Below are positions 7,245-14,408 of a stretch of DNA of 64,000 nt, in pieces. Positions within the stretch are counted from its first letter, which is position 1. Each line of letters opens with the position of its first letter. The notes beneath the pieces are model-generated. The model worked only from the letters and a program-made list of their open reading frames with translations, was not told where the DNA came from and searched no databases. The DNA comes from Thiorhodovibrio frisius. GTDB lineage: Bacteria; Pseudomonadota; Gammaproteobacteria; Chromatiales; Chromatiaceae. The stretch is taken from positions 1,730,501 to 1,794,500 of the forward strand of contig NZ_CP121471.1 of NCBI RefSeq assembly GCF_033954835.1, written 5' to 3'. Both the position numbers and the translations under genes were made by a program.

Positions 7245-9809
7245 TCATTTGTTGAGATCGTGCGTGACTTGCGCAGCAGACAAGACCGTCGCCACCATCT
7301 GCTGCAAGCGGCTGAGTCGATCAAGAATCTGGCCCTTGAGTGCCAGCAATTCATCGCACGCCCCACTCAGAGACTCGGACTCGCCGCCGTCGCTCAGGCG
7401 AATGATTTCGGTGCCGACCTCATGAATACGCCGGTGGATGGCGTCGATCTCCTGGTATTCGGGTAAGTGACCGTAGCGCTTTTTTCCCTCTCCCGCGTAC
7501 CAGACACCAAAACGGCAAAGGCCAGGGTTCTCAAGCTCTTCTCGTGACATGTCAATGTCTGCGCCCTTGGCTGAACCGATGACCCGCTGGACCCATTTGA
7601 TATGTTCATACTGGGCCAGCAGGAGCGGCATATCGATGCCGTCCCATTCATTCCGGGCCAAGTGATCCCATTTCCAGTCCGGTGTGAAGGCTCGCGTCCA
7701 GCCCGCCACCTCGGCTGCCGGCATGGGGTAACTGATCCCATAACCCTGGGCGCAATCGCAACCAAAGTGCATCAGGAGCACCCCGTGTTCCGCCGTCTCA
7801 ACACCCTCGGCGATCACCCGCTTATTGAAGGCACTGGCTAGCCCGATGACGCCTTCAATAATGGCCAGATCTTCCTGATCGTCGAGCATGTCGCGGACGA
7901 ACGACTGATCGATCTTCAGTGTTTCGGCTGGCAACTGTTTGAGATAACTGAGTGACGAATAGCCGGTGCCGAAATCGTCAAGCGCGAAGGTGACGCCCAT
8001 GGCCTGACAGGCGGCCATCACTTCGCGCATCATGTCGACATCCTCCAGAGCGGTGCTTTCGAGGATTTCGAGTTCCAGCAGATGCGCGGGCACATCCGGG
8101 TGCTCGTCCAGGATCGCCCGCAGACGCGCCACAAAATCGATGTGCTGAAATTGACGCGCGGCGATATTGACACTGACGGCCATCGGGTGGCCGTTGAGCG
8201 CCCACTGTTCCATCTGTCCCAACGCCTCATGCAAGACCCACTCGCCGATATCCACGATCATCTGGGATTTCTCCACGAGCGGCAAAAACTCCATCGGCCC
8301 TAGGAGCCCCCGCTCGGGGTGCTGCCAGCGGATCAGGGCCTCCATGCCCACGACCTCACCGGTGCGCATATTCACCTTGGGTTGATAATAAAGCCGGAAT
8401 TCGCCGTGCTGCAGGGCTTCGCGGATGCGATCAAGCTCACGGTGCTGATCGCGAAGCTCCCTGGCCGCGTCCTGATCGAACAGATGATAGCGATTACGGC
8501 CCTGCTGCTTGGCGAGATACATGGCTTGGTCGGCATGTCGCAGCAGAGTGTCCGGGTCGGAATCGTCGAATGGATACAGGGTGACGCCAATGCTGGCCGA
8601 GACACCCAGGTCGATGCCGTTGGTCCGGAAGGGCTTGGCCACGGCATCGAAGACCCGCTGGAGGATCATCTCTACCTCTTCGGCATTATCGAGTTCGGCA
8701 AGCAGGAGCACGAATTCGTCGCCCCCTAGGCGCGCGACCGTATCGCCGCCGCGCAGGGTCCCCCGCAGGCGATTGGCGATCTCGATCAGGAGCCGGTCGC
8801 CGATCTCATGGCCGTGCCGGTCATTGACGAGCTTGAAACCGTCGAGATCGAGAAAGCAGATAGCGACCAGCCGCTCGAAGCGCTTGGCGTTGGATAGTGT
8901 CTGATGGAGACGCTCGGCTAGGAGCACCCGGTTGGGCAGATCGGTCAAGGCATCGTAATGGGCTAGCGCCTCCAGGCGCTGCTGCGTATTTTTAAGGTCT
9001 GTGATGTCGATGAACATGCCGACATAGTGCGTGACCTCGCGAGCCCTGTTCGTGACCGCGTTGATATGGAGAATTTCCGGATAGACTTCACCGGATTTCT
9101 TGCGGTTCCATATCTCCCCCTGCCACTGACCGGTTTCATGTAGTCGACTCCACAGATCCTGATAAAAGGACGCCTCTTGCAGACCCGATTTGAGCAGGGC
9201 GGGCGTCTGTCCCAGCGCTTCCTCGCGCGAGTAGCCCGTCACCCTGGTAAAGGAGGCGTTGACATCGAGAATGCTGGCCTTGGGATCCGTGATGACAATT
9301 CCTTCCTGCGAATGCTCAAAGACGCTGGCAACTAACCGGAGTTTTCGATCTGCGAGCTTGCTTTCGGTCATGTCGCGCAGGGTTTCAACGGCGCCAATGA
9401 CCCGGCCCGTCTCGTCCCGAATCAGCCCGGCGTCGATCGACAGGTAGAGTTCGCTGCCAAGCAGCGGCATGACGCACCAGTTCTCGGCATGGGCGGCGAA
9501 TGCCTGACCCGGACGGGCCTCATGGCTGTCATAGAAATGACCGATTTCACCGGCACGTTCCTGGACGATCAGGTCGACCAGACAGGGGCGCGGCTCGCCG
9601 TAGAAGGCGCGCCAATGTTCCCGCGTGCCCAGGACTTCCTCAGCGGCCATGCCCGTCAGGCGTTCGCACGCCTCGTTCCAGACGATGACATTGCACTCGG
9701 CGTCGAGAACGAAGGTCGGGATCACCAACTGCTGGACCAACTTGACAGCAAACCCCTGTCCTTCTGACGATTTTTCCCTCTGGAAATCAGATGATTTAGT
9801 CTTGGACAT
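7245..9809 (-). CDS. PAS-PAS-GGDEF-EAL-CZB signalling protein
   Basis: An 854-residue protein predicted to make and/or break cyclic di-GMP. Domain order: PAS at about 22-150, a second PAS at about 155-280, GGDEF with the intact motif at 362-366 ([11 protein letters not shown]), and EAL with E490-A-L ([10 protein letters not shown]) plus the downstream catalytic signatures [20 protein letters not shown] and IAEGVET. The last 125 residues look like a CZB zinc-binding domain ([10 protein letters not shown], then CRFGVWY, then two histidines in [10 protein letters not shown]). There are no membrane segments, so it should be cytoplasmic. Both enzymatic motifs are intact. CZB domains in other proteins sense zinc or hypochlorous acid; that role is inference here. 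Confidence 0.92.
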
Positions 9810-10155: not shown

Positions 10156-10539
10156 ATGAACACGAAAAAGCTCGCACTGTCCGCAGTCCTCATCTTCGGC
10201 ACTGCCCACGCCGCCACCGACAGCGTTGTCGCCTATACCCTGACTGAGGGAGAGGACATCCAGACTGTCGCTGGAAACTATGACCTGACCGTGGAGCAAA
10301 TCCTGGTAACTAACGGAATGGAGACCGACGAGATCACGGTTGGCACAGTGATTTATATCCCACCGCTGCATGCGACTGGCTATTTCAACCCTGAGACCGG
10401 GGTCTATACCGTCGCAGCCGGCGATGATCTGTACGAAATTGCGCGTCGATTCGGGACAACAGTCGCTGCCCTGGAAGCGGTCAACGAACTCAGCGGTGAC
10501 ACGATCGCTGCCGGTCAGACCCTGCAAATCCCGGATTAA
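10156..10539 (+). CDS. Secreted protein with two LysM domains
   Basis: A 127-residue protein with a short signal peptide (MNTKKLALSAVLIFGTAHA) followed by two LysM modules. The first (about 26-70) contains YTLTEGEDIQTVAGNYDLTV and ends in VIYIPP. The second (about 83-126) contains YTVAAGDDLYEIARRFGTTV and ends TLQIPD. LysM modules bind N-acetylglucosamine polymers, so the protein probably attaches to peptidoglycan in the periplasm. It has no catalytic domain. The ATG follows an AAAGAGAT ribosome-binding site. The beta-lactamase gene lies just downstream on the same strand, so the two could be co-transcribed. Confidence 0.88.
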   Translation: MNTKKLALSAVLIFGTAHAATDSVVAYTLTEGEDIQTVAGNYDLTVEQILVTNGMETDEITVGTVIYIPPLHATGYFNPETGVYTVAAGDDLYEIARRFGTTVAALEAVNELSGDTIAAGQTLQIPD

Positions 10540-10650
10540 CTGATTAACCGCCCGGGCACGCTGGCCGAAAAGTCCAATTCCCACAAGGCGACGCATAGAC
10601 ACCGAGTGGTTCGGGTCTATGCGCTTGCCCTGCTGAGTGCGTTTGAAGTC

Positions 10651-11430
10651 ATGAGCAAGTGTTTGGTTTGTGCGCTTTTCGTCCTTTTTGCAGGCCAACT
10701 GATGGCGGATGACGCGGCGCTCGCCGAGGTCTTTGCCCGCGGCGGCGTCGAAGGAACGACGGTGATTTCATCGCTGAGCGGCGAGCAGACCTTTATCTAT
10801 AACGAATCCCGAGCACGCCAAAGGTTCTCGCCGGCGTCGACATTCAAGATACCGAATACGCTGATCTCCCTCGAAGAGCAGGGCATTTCCGGCAAGGATG
10901 CAGTGTTCAAATGGGATGGGCGAGTTCACGAGATTTCCGCTTGGAATCATGATCAGACGCTGGAGAGTGCCTTTAAGGTCTCCTGTGTCTGGTGTTATCA
11001 GCAACTCGCGAGTCAGGTCGGTGCGGAGCCTTATCGCGCTTATCTGCAAGCGCTTGATTACGGCGAGCTGAGTGAGCCATTTTCTGAAACCACCTTTTGG
11101 CTCGACGGGGCGCTCACCATCAGCGCGATAGAGCAGGTTGCGTTTCTTAAAAAGCTGTATCAGCGTTCGCTGCCTTTCAGCGCATCATCCTACGAGACGC
11201 TGCGAGCCATCATGCTGGAAGAGAAGACGCCAGAGTATTCGATTCGGGCCAAGACAGGGTGGGCAACGCGCGTCACATCGAAAGTCGGTTGGTATGTCGG
11301 CTATGTCGAGACCCAGACTGATCAATGGTTTTTTGCGACCAACATCATGGCTGAACACGAAGCCGATCTGCCGCTACGCCAAGGGCTCACGCGAGAGGCG
11401 TTGCAGGCGGTCGGGGCTCTCGACGATTAG
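10651..11430 (+). CDS. Class D (OXA-type) beta-lactamase
   Basis: A 259-residue serine beta-lactamase that would hydrolyse beta-lactams in the periplasm. The chosen ATG at 10651 gives a clean signal peptide (MSKCLVCALFVLFAGQLMA). Class D signatures are present: S63-T-F-K66 with the nucleophile and the lysine that is normally carboxylated, S111-C-V113, and K201-T-G203-W. The usual Y-G-N motif reads Y137-G-E139. WLDGALTISAIEQ is also typical of the class. A GTG at 10606 would add 15 residues before the signal. No integron, cassette or IS context is visible, so this looks like a resident chromosomal gene. Substrate range cannot be judged from sequence alone. Confidence 0.92.
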   Translation: MSKCLVCALFVLFAGQLMADDAALAEVFARGGVEGTTVISSLSGEQTFIYNESRARQRFSPASTFKIPNTLISLEEQGISGKDAVFKWDGRVHEISAWNHDQTLESAFKVSCVWCYQQLASQVGAEPYRAYLQALDYGELSEPFSETTFWLDGALTISAIEQVAFLKKLYQRSLPFSASSYETLRAIMLEEKTPEYSIRAKTGWATRVTSKVGWYVGYVETQTDQWFFATNIMAEHEADLPLRQGLTREALQAVGALDD

Positions 11431-11509: not shown

Positions 11510-12652
11510 TCAGTTGATGGCGCCTGCCAGTTGCGTTGCGCGATGCTCCATGTGCTGGAACAGGGATTTGTAGAGTTCACAATAGGGATCTTTCTCAAAC
11601 AGGCTCTGGTGCATGCTGTAGGTGCGCACCGGGCAGCCGCCGTGACACATGGATAGATAGTCGCACTGGAGACAATCCCCTTGCATCAGCTTTACCGGGC
11701 GCGCGTTGAAATCCTCGCGGGCCGGGCTGTGGCGGAGCAGGTCGGACAGGCTGTCGCACTCGAGGATGTTGCCGAATCGATACTCCGGATAGCTGGTTAC
11801 CCAGCAGTCGCACTGGGCGACATGGCCGCGGGCGTCGATGGCGATGAAATTGTCGGCGCAATTTGGCCCCCAGATGCAGGGCAGGCAGGCATCGCGATGG
11901 CTGAAGTAGTCGAGCAGTTGATCAAAGGGGCCGATGCGTACGCCGTCGCGATAACCGCGCTCCAGCCAGAGATCGGCCAGCTCGCAGTGGAATCGGGCTA
12001 ATGCATTTACATCAAGGTTCACATCCGGGGACAACTGCTGCTTGACGGCATTTGCTTCACCGCCGGGAAATGGGGTGTTGATCTGAAAGTCGGTGATACC
12101 GAGCCTATCGACGAGTTGGGTGTAGAAGGACTCCGCACCCATCTCCAGCGTGCCTTGGTTGATCAAGGAAATCGCCTTCACATCAATGCCGGCGTCCCGC
12201 GCCATGCGGACTTTGCGGCACCAGAGGTCATCGTAGTGTTGGGGATCGCGTCCGGGCTGCTTGCGATGCCGGTTCGGGTAGTCCAACGAGGTGCTGAGAC
12301 TGTTGCCGAACATCGCGGTGATGATGTCGTTCCAGTCCGAGCTGTAGGCCAGCATGTTTGTCTGCAAACCATGCTCGACGTGCTTGTCGCGCGTTGCGGC
12401 GGCCTCGCCGATCAAGGCGAATGCCTTTTCATACCAGCTTGGAGGCAGCAACATGGCTTCGCCGCCCTGCCAGTGGATGCTGAGCGCGCCGATCTGGTGG
12501 CTGTCCATGTGATCCAGCACCTTGTTGACGATCAGCTGGAGGCGTTCGAGACTCAGGCGATCGTCGGTGAGGTGCTCAAAGCAGTAGTCGCAAGCGGCGT
12601 TGCATTGGTTGGTCGACAGCAGGATCAGTGAAAAATGATTGCCGTTGATCAC
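11510..12652 (-). CDS. Radical SAM/SPASM RiPP maturase
   Basis: A 380-residue radical SAM enzyme, probably the modifying enzyme for the glycine-rich precursor upstream. The cluster-binding C-x3-C-x2-C motif is in NQCNAACDYCFEH near residue 20. A SPASM-type C-terminus follows: CLPCIWGPNC, CDCW, and GDCLQCDYLSMCHGGCPVR. These would carry auxiliary Fe-S clusters. The architecture resembles maturases of the GRRM and XYE systems, which form three-residue cyclophanes (triceptides); that match is from memory of the families. The start is a GTG at 12652 overlapping the stop of the preceding gene (GTGA), which indicates translational coupling. It is the last gene of a four-gene operon. Confidence 0.85.
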   Translation of the reverse strand: MINGNHFSLILLSTNQCNAACDYCFEHLTDDRLSLERLQLIVNKVLDHMDSHQIGALSIHWQGGEAMLLPPSWYEKAFALIGEAAATRDKHVEHGLQTNMLAYSSDWNDIITAMFGNSLSTSLDYPNRHRKQPGRDPQHYDDLWCRKVRMARDAGIDVKAISLINQGTLEMGAESFYTQLVDRLGITDFQINTPFPGGEANAVKQQLSPDVNLDVNALARFHCELADLWLERGYRDGVRIGPFDQLLDYFSHRDACLPCIWGPNCADNFIAIDARGHVAQCDCWVTSYPEYRFGNILECDSLSDLLRHSPAREDFNARPVKLMQGDCLQCDYLSMCHGGCPVRTYSMHQSLFEKDPYCELYKSLFQHMEHRATQLAGAIN

Positions 12653-13497
12653 GGGCCGGCTCCTGCGCCCGGAGATGCGGCAGCGAGGTCCTGCCGGAGT
12701 TCGTCTCCCGCTTGCTTGAGGGTGTCGAACAGGGCCTTGACGCCCGTGCAGTCGTAGTCGCGCTCTGGCCATTTGAAATAGCCTTGGCAGGCGGACAAGA
12801 ACGGGCAGTCGGCGCACTCGGCATTTTCAGCCAATAACCGGTTGCTCCAAGTCGCGACAAAGTCCTCGAAGATCAGGCCTTGGTCGGTCTCAGCACCGGT
12901 TTCGGCATTGGTCTCGGCTAGCCGACCGGGTAGGTGCTCCTGGCCTTGGTCGTCGATGTGGCGGATGAGCTTCGGGTCTTCTTCCTGAATCGCCCACAGG
13001 CTGACGGGCTGAGCATGGCAGAAGCCGAGCAGCAGGCTATGGAAAGGCTCGATTGGCTGTGTCACCCTGGGCCTGTGCAGATAGTCTTCCAGCAAGTGCG
13101 CCAGCGCGTCGATGCGTGCTGGTTGCGGTTGCCCGAGCAGAAGTCTGATCTGGAAGTGTAGTGACGAGGCCAGTTTGACGGCATTCTCGAAACCGGCCTC
13201 GACGGGCAGCGACACCCGCACCGGATGGTTGTTGAGTAGCTTGGCATAGCGGTAGAGGCTGGTGAAGTCTCGCGCTGGATGCCTCATCGGCAGATCGATT
13301 GGGATGGCTTCGGCCCAGTGCATCAGGGCGTCGATGTCACCCGGCAGCTCGCACAACTGAATGTAGGCGAGGTTGGCGAAATCTTCATCGCGCACTTGGG
13401 CGACCAAGTGGTTTGGGAGCGCACTGCGCACGATCAGATCACGACCGCGAAACGCCTCCAGCTGCGCGAGCGGGATCTGGTAGAGGAGGGAGGTCAT
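12649..13497 (-). CDS. rSAM-like partner protein with SPASM-type cysteines but no radical SAM motif
   Basis: A 282-residue protein I cannot name. The middle contains alternating strand-like and helical segments (IPIDLPMRHPA, HPVRVSLPVEAGF, FQIRLLLGQP) reminiscent of a radical SAM barrel. There is no C-x3-C-x2-C motif. The C-terminus does have C-x2-C-P-x4-C (CADCPFLSACQGYFKWP) followed by DYDC, as in the auxiliary-cluster region of SPASM proteins. It may be a catalytically dead rSAM-fold partner that binds precursor or supplies a cluster. It lies between the precursor gene and the maturase gene and overlaps the latter. The start has a weak ribosome-binding site. Confidence 0.7.
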   Translation of the reverse strand: MTSLLYQIPLAQLEAFRGRDLIVRSALPNHLVAQVRDEDFANLAYIQLCELPGDIDALMHWAEAIPIDLPMRHPARDFTSLYRYAKLLNNHPVRVSLPVEAGFENAVKLASSLHFQIRLLLGQPQPARIDALAHLLEDYLHRPRVTQPIEPFHSLLLGFCHAQPVSLWAIQEEDPKLIRHIDDQGQEHLPGRLAETNAETGAETDQGLIFEDFVATWSNRLLAENAECADCPFLSACQGYFKWPERDYDCTGVKALFDTLKQAGDELRQDLAAASPGAGAGP

Positions 13498-13565
13498 CGA
13501 AAGAACCGTGGCCGAACCCGCCGGCCGGGTTGGTCGGCAGGCTCAACCAGGATTGACGGCGCCGC

Positions 13566-13892
13566 TTAGCGTCTGTTGACCCAGCTGCCGCCATAGCCGC
13601 CGCCCCGACGGTTGGCCCAACTGCCGCCGCCAGAGCCGCCGCGCCCATCGATCCAGCCGCCTCCGCGGACAACACCACCACCGCGGCGGTTGATCCAGGC
13701 TGCGGCCTGTGCGGACTGCTCAGGCATTAGCGTGCCACCAGCCACAGCGCCGACAATCACAGCGCTGGACCACTTGCCGAGGCCCAGAAGAAAGCCTCGA
13801 CGGCTCTGGAGCTGCTGCTCTTCGGAAAGCTCAGTGTGAGGGTTGGCGTCGGCATCGCGCGCAACGGCGTCAAATTCATGCTGGTCTGTCAT
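13566..13892 (-). CDS. Glycine-rich RiPP precursor with Tat-like leader and four W-x-N/D core motifs
   Basis: A 108-residue precursor. Residues 1-63 form a leader with a twin-arginine signal (S30-R-R-G-F-L35, then a hydrophobic stretch to about 57) and an AQA cleavage site at 61-63. The core is Gly/Arg-rich with four evenly spaced motifs: W66-I-N68, W80-I-D82, W92-A-N94 and W104-V-N106, three of them followed by Arg-Arg. Aromatic-X-Asn/Asp is the substrate pattern of radical SAM enzymes that join the aromatic ring to the beta-carbon of the third residue. The gene has a good ribosome-binding site (AGAGGAC) and lies 12 nt after the SnoaL-like gene and 68 nt before the rSAM-like partner. Function of the product is unknown. 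Confidence 0.85.
   Translation of the reverse strand: MTDQHEFDAVARDADANPHTELSEEQQLQSRRGFLLGLGKWSSAVIVGAVAGGTLMPEQSAQAAAWINRRGGGVVRGGGWIDGRGGSGGGSWANRRGGGYGGSWVNRR
13569..13697 (-). repeat. Core-peptide repeats of the RiPP precursor
   Basis: Encodes residues 66-108, where a degenerate unit W-(I/A/V)-(N/D)-(R/G)-R-G-G occurs four times, separated by glycine-rich spacers (VVRGGG, SGGGS, YGGS). Spacing between tryptophans is 14, 12 and 12 residues. Confidence 0.85.
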
Positions 13893-13904
13893 GGGAAATG
13901 TCCT

Positions 13905-14408
13905 CTATTTTGGTGCAGCCTGTGACGCGGGTTCCTCGCAGCCGATCAACTGCGAAAAATGCATGCTGTGGAAGCGCCAGGCATCGTCCTGCTTAACCAG
14001 GACGGCGGAGATGTTGGTCACGAATTCGCGTGACTGATCTGCCTTTTTATCGGTAAAACTGCACACACCGGTAAGCCAGGTTACATCGTCCTGCGCGCTG
14101 CCGGCACCGTCGCTGCACTTGACCGCCATGGTGTTGGCGTCGAATCCTGCCACGAAGTGTTCATAAGCGTCTTTGACCTCGGCAGGGCCGACCCAATGCT
14201 CGCCGGGACCGGTGCCCATGAGCATGATGTCGTCGCTGTCTGCATAGGTGGCCATGACACCATCGATATCGTGCGCGTCAAGTGCCTTGTGCTGCTGTTC
14301 CCACAGCGCCTTGACGGACTCGACTGTCGTTTGCTCGGTCTCGGCCAGCGCCGTCCCAGCGCTGATACTCATTGCCAATGCCAGAGCTGTGGTCGCCAAT
14401 TTACTCAT
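13905..14408 (-). CDS. Secreted SnoaL-like (NTF2-fold) protein
   Basis: A 167-residue protein with a Sec signal peptide (MSKLATTALALAMSISAGTALA) and a SnoaL/DUF4440-type cone-shaped NTF2 fold, visible in VKALWEQQHKALDAHDIDGV, the D-DIMLMGTGPGEHW loop and the closing AWRFHSMHFSQ strand. Such proteins bind or isomerise small molecules in a deep pocket; no catalytic set can be assigned here. The ATG has a strong GGAGG site. It is the first gene of the RiPP operon, 12 nt upstream of the precursor, and would meet the exported peptide in the periplasm. A binding or processing role for the peptide is inference. Confidence 0.78.
   Translation of the reverse strand: MSKLATTALALAMSISAGTALAETEQTTVESVKALWEQQHKALDAHDIDGVMATYADSDDIMLMGTGPGEHWVGPAEVKDAYEHFVAGFDANTMAVKCSDGAGSAQDDVTWLTGVCSFTDKKADQSREFVTNISAVLVKQDDAWRFHSMHFSQLIGCEEPASQAAPK

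Follow-up and report, generated by a model that had tools for sequence, protein, structure and literature searches.

A putative Tat-type triceptide operon with a pseudo-radical SAM partner in Thiorhodovibrio frisius

The window, i.e. the whole stretch of 64,000 nucleotides (nt) analysed here, comes from Thiorhodovibrio frisius (GCF_033954835.1, contig NZ_CP121471.1, positions 1,730,501 to 1,794,500) and carries a four-gene operon on its minus strand. A sequence-only reading, made without database searches, had interpreted these genes as a system for a triceptide, a ribosomally synthesized and post-translationally modified peptide (RiPP) with three-residue cyclophane rings. All four open reading frames (ORFs) are present in the order NTF2-fold protein, precursor, partner and maturase, and family models recovered both the secreted NTF2-fold protein and the radical S-adenosylmethionine (SAM)/SPASM enzyme of that reading. 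In window coordinates, the features are:

13905..14408, minus strand: NTF2/SnoaL-fold protein of 167 amino acids (aa) with a signal peptide-like N-terminus, gene 1 of the operon (SnoaL_3, 4.6e-14)
13566..13892, minus strand: precursor of 108 aa, with a signal of the twin-arginine translocation (Tat) type, SRRGFLLGLGKWSSAVIVGAVAGG...AQA, then a core with four W-x-N/D motifs
13704..13802, minus strand: codons of the precursor leader, residues 31-63, from the twin Arg to the A-x-A site (invariant R31, R32, F34, W41, S42)
13569..13703, minus strand: codons of residues 64-108, the mature core predicted for a cut behind AQA-63 (inferred cut site)
12649..13497, minus strand: partner of 282 aa, a predicted pseudo-radical SAM/SPASM protein without CxxxCxxC that keeps C228, C231, C237 and C250
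11510..12652, minus strand: radical SAM/SPASM maturase of 380 aa, GTG start overlapping the partner stop (PF04055, Radical_SAM, 9.3e-10)

The gaps between the NTF2 gene and the precursor and between the precursor and the partner measure 12 and 68 nt, respectively. For the maturase, the GTG at 12652 is the most probable start codon; it gives a 4 nt overlap with the partner stop and a protein of 380 aa, whereas the longest ORF would encode 435 aa.

The Gly/Arg-rich precursor contains its four motifs, W66-I-N, W80-I-D, W92-A-N and W104-V-N, exactly where the sequence-only reading had placed them. Conservation of the motif in homologues had been named beforehand as a point on which the triceptide reading could fail; W-x-N/D turned out to be conserved from phylum to phylum, and its middle position is free (V, A, Y, I, G, L, F, H, N and others). 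In 41 precursors (alignment A4), Asn or Asp stands two residues after 281 of 302 core Trp residues and Trp two residues before 276 of 286 Asn residues, so that only 10 of the 286 Asn fall outside a motif. This alignment was picked by profile and not by the twin Arg, and covers 41 of the 46 loci with a precursor match; the five precursors left out (L028, L033, L041, L042 and L062) all show RRxFL. A second count over 40 precursors, selected for RRxF in that three chance frames without it were removed first, gave 253 of 274 Trp and 248 of 258 Asn. When the cores of these 40 were shuffled in 1000 trials, W-x-N/D occurred 33 times on average and 47 times at most, compared with the 253 observed. Arrays reach 17 motifs in nature, and W-x-N lies at most three residues from the C-terminal end in 47 of 49 precursors. 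Motifs within one gene are not independent events, as repeat expansion can copy them; the rule still holds across phyla. In the verrucomicrobial cores (L050, L052 and L053), linkers of the Gly-Pro-Arg-Arg type replace the Gly-rich ones and W-x-N is kept.

The spacing between successive motifs varies and the i,i+2 relation is nearly fixed. If a crosslink forms within the motif, positions i and i+2 should be conserved together and the residue between them should vary, as is seen here. The conservation across phyla also supports a RiPP-type pair of precursor and maturase, as had been proposed, and as judged from sequence the triceptide reading of the operon is well supported. The link itself would be a Trp-Asn/Asp bond, with a regiochemistry that is likewise predicted.

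A search of genome contigs with the maturase as query yielded 44 loci, 45-73% identical to it. They belong to Chromatiaceae, Competibacteraceae, Accumulibacter, Syntrophobacteraceae/Desulfobacteraceae and other deltaproteobacterial records, and further to Pyrinomonadaceae/Acidobacteria and Verrucomicrobiota. Together with nine loci of the window's family and the window itself, 54 loci were mapped, of which 46 have a precursor, 35 a partner beside the maturase and 32 the NTF2 protein. Copies with identical precursors were dropped (L006, L008, L013, L015, L016 = L022, L021, L042, L039, L062), as were L001-L004, L019 and L020, which represent the window, further enzymes encoded in its genome, or fragments. 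Wherever the genes are present at partner-bearing loci, the order (NTF2), precursor, partner, maturase is held. At 16 Competibacteraceae-type loci the maturase lacks an adjacent partner and is followed by the precursor wherever one was found; another three loci (L047, L058 and L059) are cut. One Competibacteraceae-type locus (L028) stands in a record titled Synechococcaceae cyanobacterium SM1_2_3, probably because of a misbinned contig. A plasmid search yielded 152 records, all below 60% identity, with 24-28% among the 30 matches listed.

Maturase and partner occur in the identical 14 of 146 genomes of the window's family. The partner test covered 40 of the 44 maturase loci, leaving out L028, L040, L042 and L062, and found the partner in 38 of the 40 genomes (14 of 15 plus 24 of 25). 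The two without a match are those of L038 and L047; the contig of L047 breaks off at the start of the maturase. In a set of 398 genomes of the phylum, with at most six candidates scored per genome, the partner appeared only in the window's own; in the 47 of these genomes with any GrrM-like match, the maturase (1e-60) was likewise confined to the window's genome. The idea that the partner is absent in Competibacteraceae was refuted, as 14 of 15 such genomes carry it elsewhere. In eight of these draft assemblies it lies on another contig than the maturase, as judged by the different lengths of the two contigs. Second precursors were examined in eight of the 14 genomes with a partner elsewhere, and in all eight stretches (L093-L100) the partner directly follows a second precursor with no maturase there. 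These second precursors are rich in W-N-N, W-Y-N and W-Y-D units. Because the partner stays with a precursor when parted from the maturase, a role in handling the precursor is favoured. Within the genus, one genome (G028; L005, L018, L019 and L020) has two full copies, whose partners are 80% and 44% identical, plus fragments of a third, and another (G076) has no copy of the system.

The same distribution bears on the proposal that the precursor is an exported, Trp/Asn/Gly-rich adhesive or structural peptide next to an unrelated radical SAM gene. The Gly-rich, repetitive core of low complexity would suit such a peptide. However, the gene set is conserved over several phyla, partner and maturase share the same 14 genomes of the family, and the pair of precursor and partner persists where the set is split, all of which leaves this explanation hardly credible.

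The maturase carries CxxxCxxC (C17, C21 and C24) and nine further Cys, and all 12 are invariant in 30 of 30 maturases. C259/C265/C281/C340 and C327/C330/C336/C358 fit the ligands of the two auxiliary clusters of the anaerobic sulfatase-maturing enzyme (anSME); C283 is extra. Asp282, directly after C281, is invariant in the 30 as well and matches a residue that we take to be the catalytic base of anSME. The solved folds nearest to the maturase model are anSME and ChlB (TM-score about 0.8), and a profile search of the PDB sequences with the maturase placed anSME on top (1.8e-29).

The maturase exceeds the cut-off of no NCBIfam family. Scores against cut-offs were 137.2 and 349 bits for the anSME model (TIGR03942), 130 and 450 for DynA, 80.9 and 310 for GrrM (TIGR04261) and 64 and 425 for AmcB. 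DarW and DarE gave 120 and 97 bits, and YhhB, FxsB and XyeB 51, 43 and 37 bits, far under the cut-offs of these three. The membership of the GrrM or XyeB family that had been put forward for checking thus did not hold up, the enzyme lying below the cut-offs of GrrM, XyeB, FxsB, YhhB and AmcB. By the same curated cut-offs, assignments as GrrM/OscB and as anSME were rejected. The sulfatase maturase model also attracts a XyeB just over its own cut-off (L076, 172 bits) and a true GrrM (L065, 162 bits). No RRE-type family was among the matches listed for maturase or partner. Searches for reference enzymes found no XyeB over the cut-off in 321 genomes and no DynA over the cut-off in 377.

A tree of 45 rows, which took in 15 of the 30 aligned maturases, unites these in one clade (support 100/100, stem 2.83). 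The clade is apart from GrrM (L065), from XyeB (L076) and its neighbours, and from the anSME group; the four references over the anSME cut-off (L066, L071, L119 and L120) sit in another tree group, although the deepest forks are weak. By sequence, then, the maturase is a distinct lineage whose W-x-N rule resembles that of GrrA/OscA1, with an enzyme far from GrrM.

A lineage of this kind might make a bond of another type, for instance from Trp N1 to the Asn beta-carbon, an ether, or Trp-Trp links like those of dynobactin and darobactin, with W-x-N serving as a recognition unit. After the sulfatase model, the maturase indeed scores best with DynA, DarW and DarE, whose models are matched by 30 of 30 members, and its clade is separate from both GrrM and the XyeB/YhhB-like group. 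The nearly fixed i,i+2 distance amid variable motif spacing favours a link within the motif instead, and Asn is rare outside it, so that we regard another bond as distinctly improbable. Less probable still is an anSME-like oxidase that would oxidize, epimerize or hydroxylate single Asn or Trp residues and form no crosslink. The proximity to anSME and ChlB structures and the invariant Asp282 speak for it; the score far below the anSME cut-off and the separate position of the anSME references in the tree speak against it, and the joint conservation of W and N(+2) would be left unexplained.

The partner was modelled with AlphaFold2 at a mean predicted local distance difference test score (pLDDT) of 92.1 and a predicted template modelling score (pTM) of 0.89. 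Aligned with VIA-align, the model matches ChlB (Z 14.5 over 255 residues, root-mean-square deviation 3.7 Å), anSME (13.6), 5wgg, which we take to be CteB (12.1), TigE (11.7) and SuiB (10.1). All 13 VIA-align rows with Z of at least 8.7 are radical SAM enzymes by title or name, and unrelated barrels stay at 8.4 or below. Plain Foldseek gave no PDB match at an E-value of 0.001 or better, and a PDB sequence search gave two matches of no meaning (E 0.16 and 0.92). Comparison of partner and maturase by hhalign reached 91% probability across roughly the C-terminal two thirds.

CxxxCxxC is present in none of 28 partners. Their only conserved Cys residues are C228 (27 of 28) and C231, C237 and C250 (28 of 28), spaced about like C327/C330/C336/C358 of the maturase and hence like auxiliary cluster II. 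According to its model, the partner is a pseudo-radical SAM/SPASM protein, consisting of a TIM-type barrel and a SPASM-like C-terminus, and it is predicted to hold one cluster. The radical SAM-like partner of the sequence-only reading thus stands as far as the fold is concerned; its degenerate nature, visible in the missing CxxxCxxC, had been overlooked.

The precursor leader has the appearance of a twin-arginine export signal, a feature that the sequence-only reading had missed. The pattern RRx[FVLI][FL] is found in 49 of 49 precursors, in all of which a moderately hydrophobic stretch (mean Kyte-Doolittle value 1.2) and a small-x-small site, by a loose pattern, precede the first motif. R31, R32, F34, W41 and S42 are invariant in 41 of 41 precursors, the conserved stretch reading RRxFLxxLGKWS, and the window's genome has a TatC gene. 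Use of the Tat pathway by the precursor is a strong inference from these features. Because W41 and S42 behind the twin-arginine box are invariant, the same stretch may also be read by the maturation enzymes.

The NTF2 protein has nine invariant residues in 26 sequences (alignment A3). Cys98 and Cys116 each occur in 15 of the 26 relatives, apparently the same ones, and likely form a periplasmic disulfide. Since its gene was not found at 22 of the 54 loci, the protein seems to be an accessory. Most likely it is a periplasmic binder of the product.

Taken together, we consider it probable that the operon makes a Tat-exported, multiply stapled peptide whose rings are closed in the cytoplasm by a two-protein system before export. 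In the cytoplasm, the radical SAM/SPASM enzyme and its pseudo-radical SAM partner would link the ring of each Trp with the beta-carbon of the Asn or Asp at +2. The window's peptide would receive four rings, which would lower the monoisotopic mass predicted for residues 64-108 from 4598.30 to 4590.24. The leader would be recognition sequence and twin-arginine signal at once, so that export follows modification. Signal peptidase would then cut at A-x-A, and no dedicated protease or transporter would be needed; none common to the gene clusters of the groups was seen by eye, without a family scan, in flanks of about 1.3 kb to 6 kb. The most likely task of the partner is to recruit the leader, to relay electrons via its one auxiliary cluster, or both, and the NTF2-fold protein, exported separately, probably binds the product in the periplasm. 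Tat proofreading chaperones are known to hold the leaders of redox enzymes. A bolder version, which we put forward tentatively and deem possible at best, is that the partner holds and shields the twin-arginine leader until all rings are closed and that its single auxiliary cluster donates electrons to the maturase or accepts them from it.

Several observations weigh against the proposed Tat-exported triceptide. The maturase scores highest with the anaerobic sulfatase maturase and DynA, not with GrrM, and the junction of its clade with the rest of the tree has a support of 49/20, with a warning from the program that long branches meet there. A promoter-like site was looked for and none was found. 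The NTF2 gene was missed at the 22 loci mentioned, some of which lie on cut contigs, and the partner of L044 is split across two frames. Fewer than four motifs are present in 3 of 40 precursors, and the eight second precursors from Competibacteraceae follow the rule less strictly (81 of 105 Trp, 70 of 90 Asn). Finally, Tat models respond weakly: TIGR01409 matches 4 of 41 precursors (best E 0.053), TIGR02811 5 of 41 (best 0.035) and PF10518 1 of 41 (E 0.29), and the window's precursor matches none of the three.

The scarcity of Tat model matches suits an alternative in which the twin Arg is just a recognition element for maturase or partner and the peptide is exported by Sec or kept inside. The twin Arg is conserved jointly with W-S, which Tat signals, to our knowledge, do not need. 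Some RiPPs are described as having Sec signals in a recent survey (PMC12452194). On the other hand, RR-x-F/V-L/F, the hydrophobic stretch and the small-x-small site, loosely defined as it is, come together in 49 of 49 precursors, and we consider recognition without Tat export unlikely.

Outside the system, a class D beta-lactamase gene (10606-11430, plus strand) lies downstream of the operon, convergent with the maturase. Its product is nearest to OXA-198-like enzymes (404 bits), under the family cut-off of 515 and over the general class D cut-off. Farther on, 10156-10539 (plus strand) encodes a small secreted protein resembling, by eye, two LysM repeats, and 7245-9809 (minus strand) a GGDEF/EAL-type signalling protein. 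In 13 loci GGDEF-type proteins are again found, without a fixed position, which may reflect no more than the size of this domain family; next to Competibacteraceae-type loci, two other families are also seen repeatedly.

The system is of interest as a divergent clade of maturases that falls short of every NCBIfam cut-off and has a clear predicted substrate rule. Its Tat-type leader and constant pseudo-radical SAM partner are two features unseen in the GrrM locus examined. If the bolder version is true, a dead radical SAM enzyme has been reused as a leader-binding chaperone and electron relay, and Tat gating explains why a RiPP that carries an export signal does not leave unmodified. The 2025 survey describes Sec signals as rare among RiPPs and notes that premature export has to be prevented in some way (PMC12452194); a peptide that leaves by Tat once it is modified would solve this problem naturally. 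In the partner, a radical SAM pseudoenzyme that would have kept one auxiliary cluster also becomes open to testing, which bears on PapB, for which intermolecular electron transfer has been proposed (PMC10470005).

Among known systems, GrrA/GrrM (OscA1/OscB, TIGR04260/TIGR04261) comes closest in design, with repeated aromatic-x-Asn motifs, a signal-like N-terminus and an adjoining radical SAM/SPASM maturase. OscB is described as joining Trp C7 to the beta-carbon of Asn or Asp at i,i+2 (PMC11002830). The GrrA/OscA1 model TIGR04260 matches 19 of 41 precursors weakly (E up to 1, best 9.8e-6) and the AmcA model 2 of 41 (best 3.9e-9), the window's precursor matching neither. In contrast to our system, the GrrM locus L065 has F-x-N repeats and no RRxF, and its genome (G173) lacks the maturase and is among those phylum genomes of which only the window's had the partner; the window maturase itself stays at 81 bits versus 310 and in another tree group. 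The layout, which the sequence-only reading had called unlike published triceptide operons, accordingly differs from this locus. Among the literature titles and abstract openings listed, neither a Tat-type triceptide nor this operon appeared, and the clade may stand in published triceptide networks (Nguyen 2020, Sugiyama 2022). A literature search for inactive radical SAM proteins found nothing; of a further 193 matches, the 20 listed were unrelated by title.

XyeB, FxsB, YhhB and AmcB are likewise radical SAM/SPASM peptide maturases, cyclophane-forming according to their NCBI names, but the window maturase lies far under their cut-offs. anSME and ChlB have the folds nearest to the maturase and match the partner too; unlike anSME, the maturase stays below the family cut-off and has a repeat peptide as neighbour in an operon without a sulfatase gene. 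HxsB and HxsC exemplify two radical SAM-type proteins acting on one repeat peptide, a pairing resembling ours, whereas our partner matches HxsC weakly (6 of 28 members, best 0.0041) and lacks CxxxCxxC. Finally, the bufferins, modified by multinuclear non-haem iron-dependent oxidases (MNIO), are portrayed in the 2025 survey as RiPPs whose leader is an export signal and whose enzyme has a partner protein (PMC12452194). Our system shares the export-signal leader and the enzyme partner with them, but differs in enzyme class, in that bufferin products are Cys-based, and in having a Tat-type signal rather than a Sec signal.

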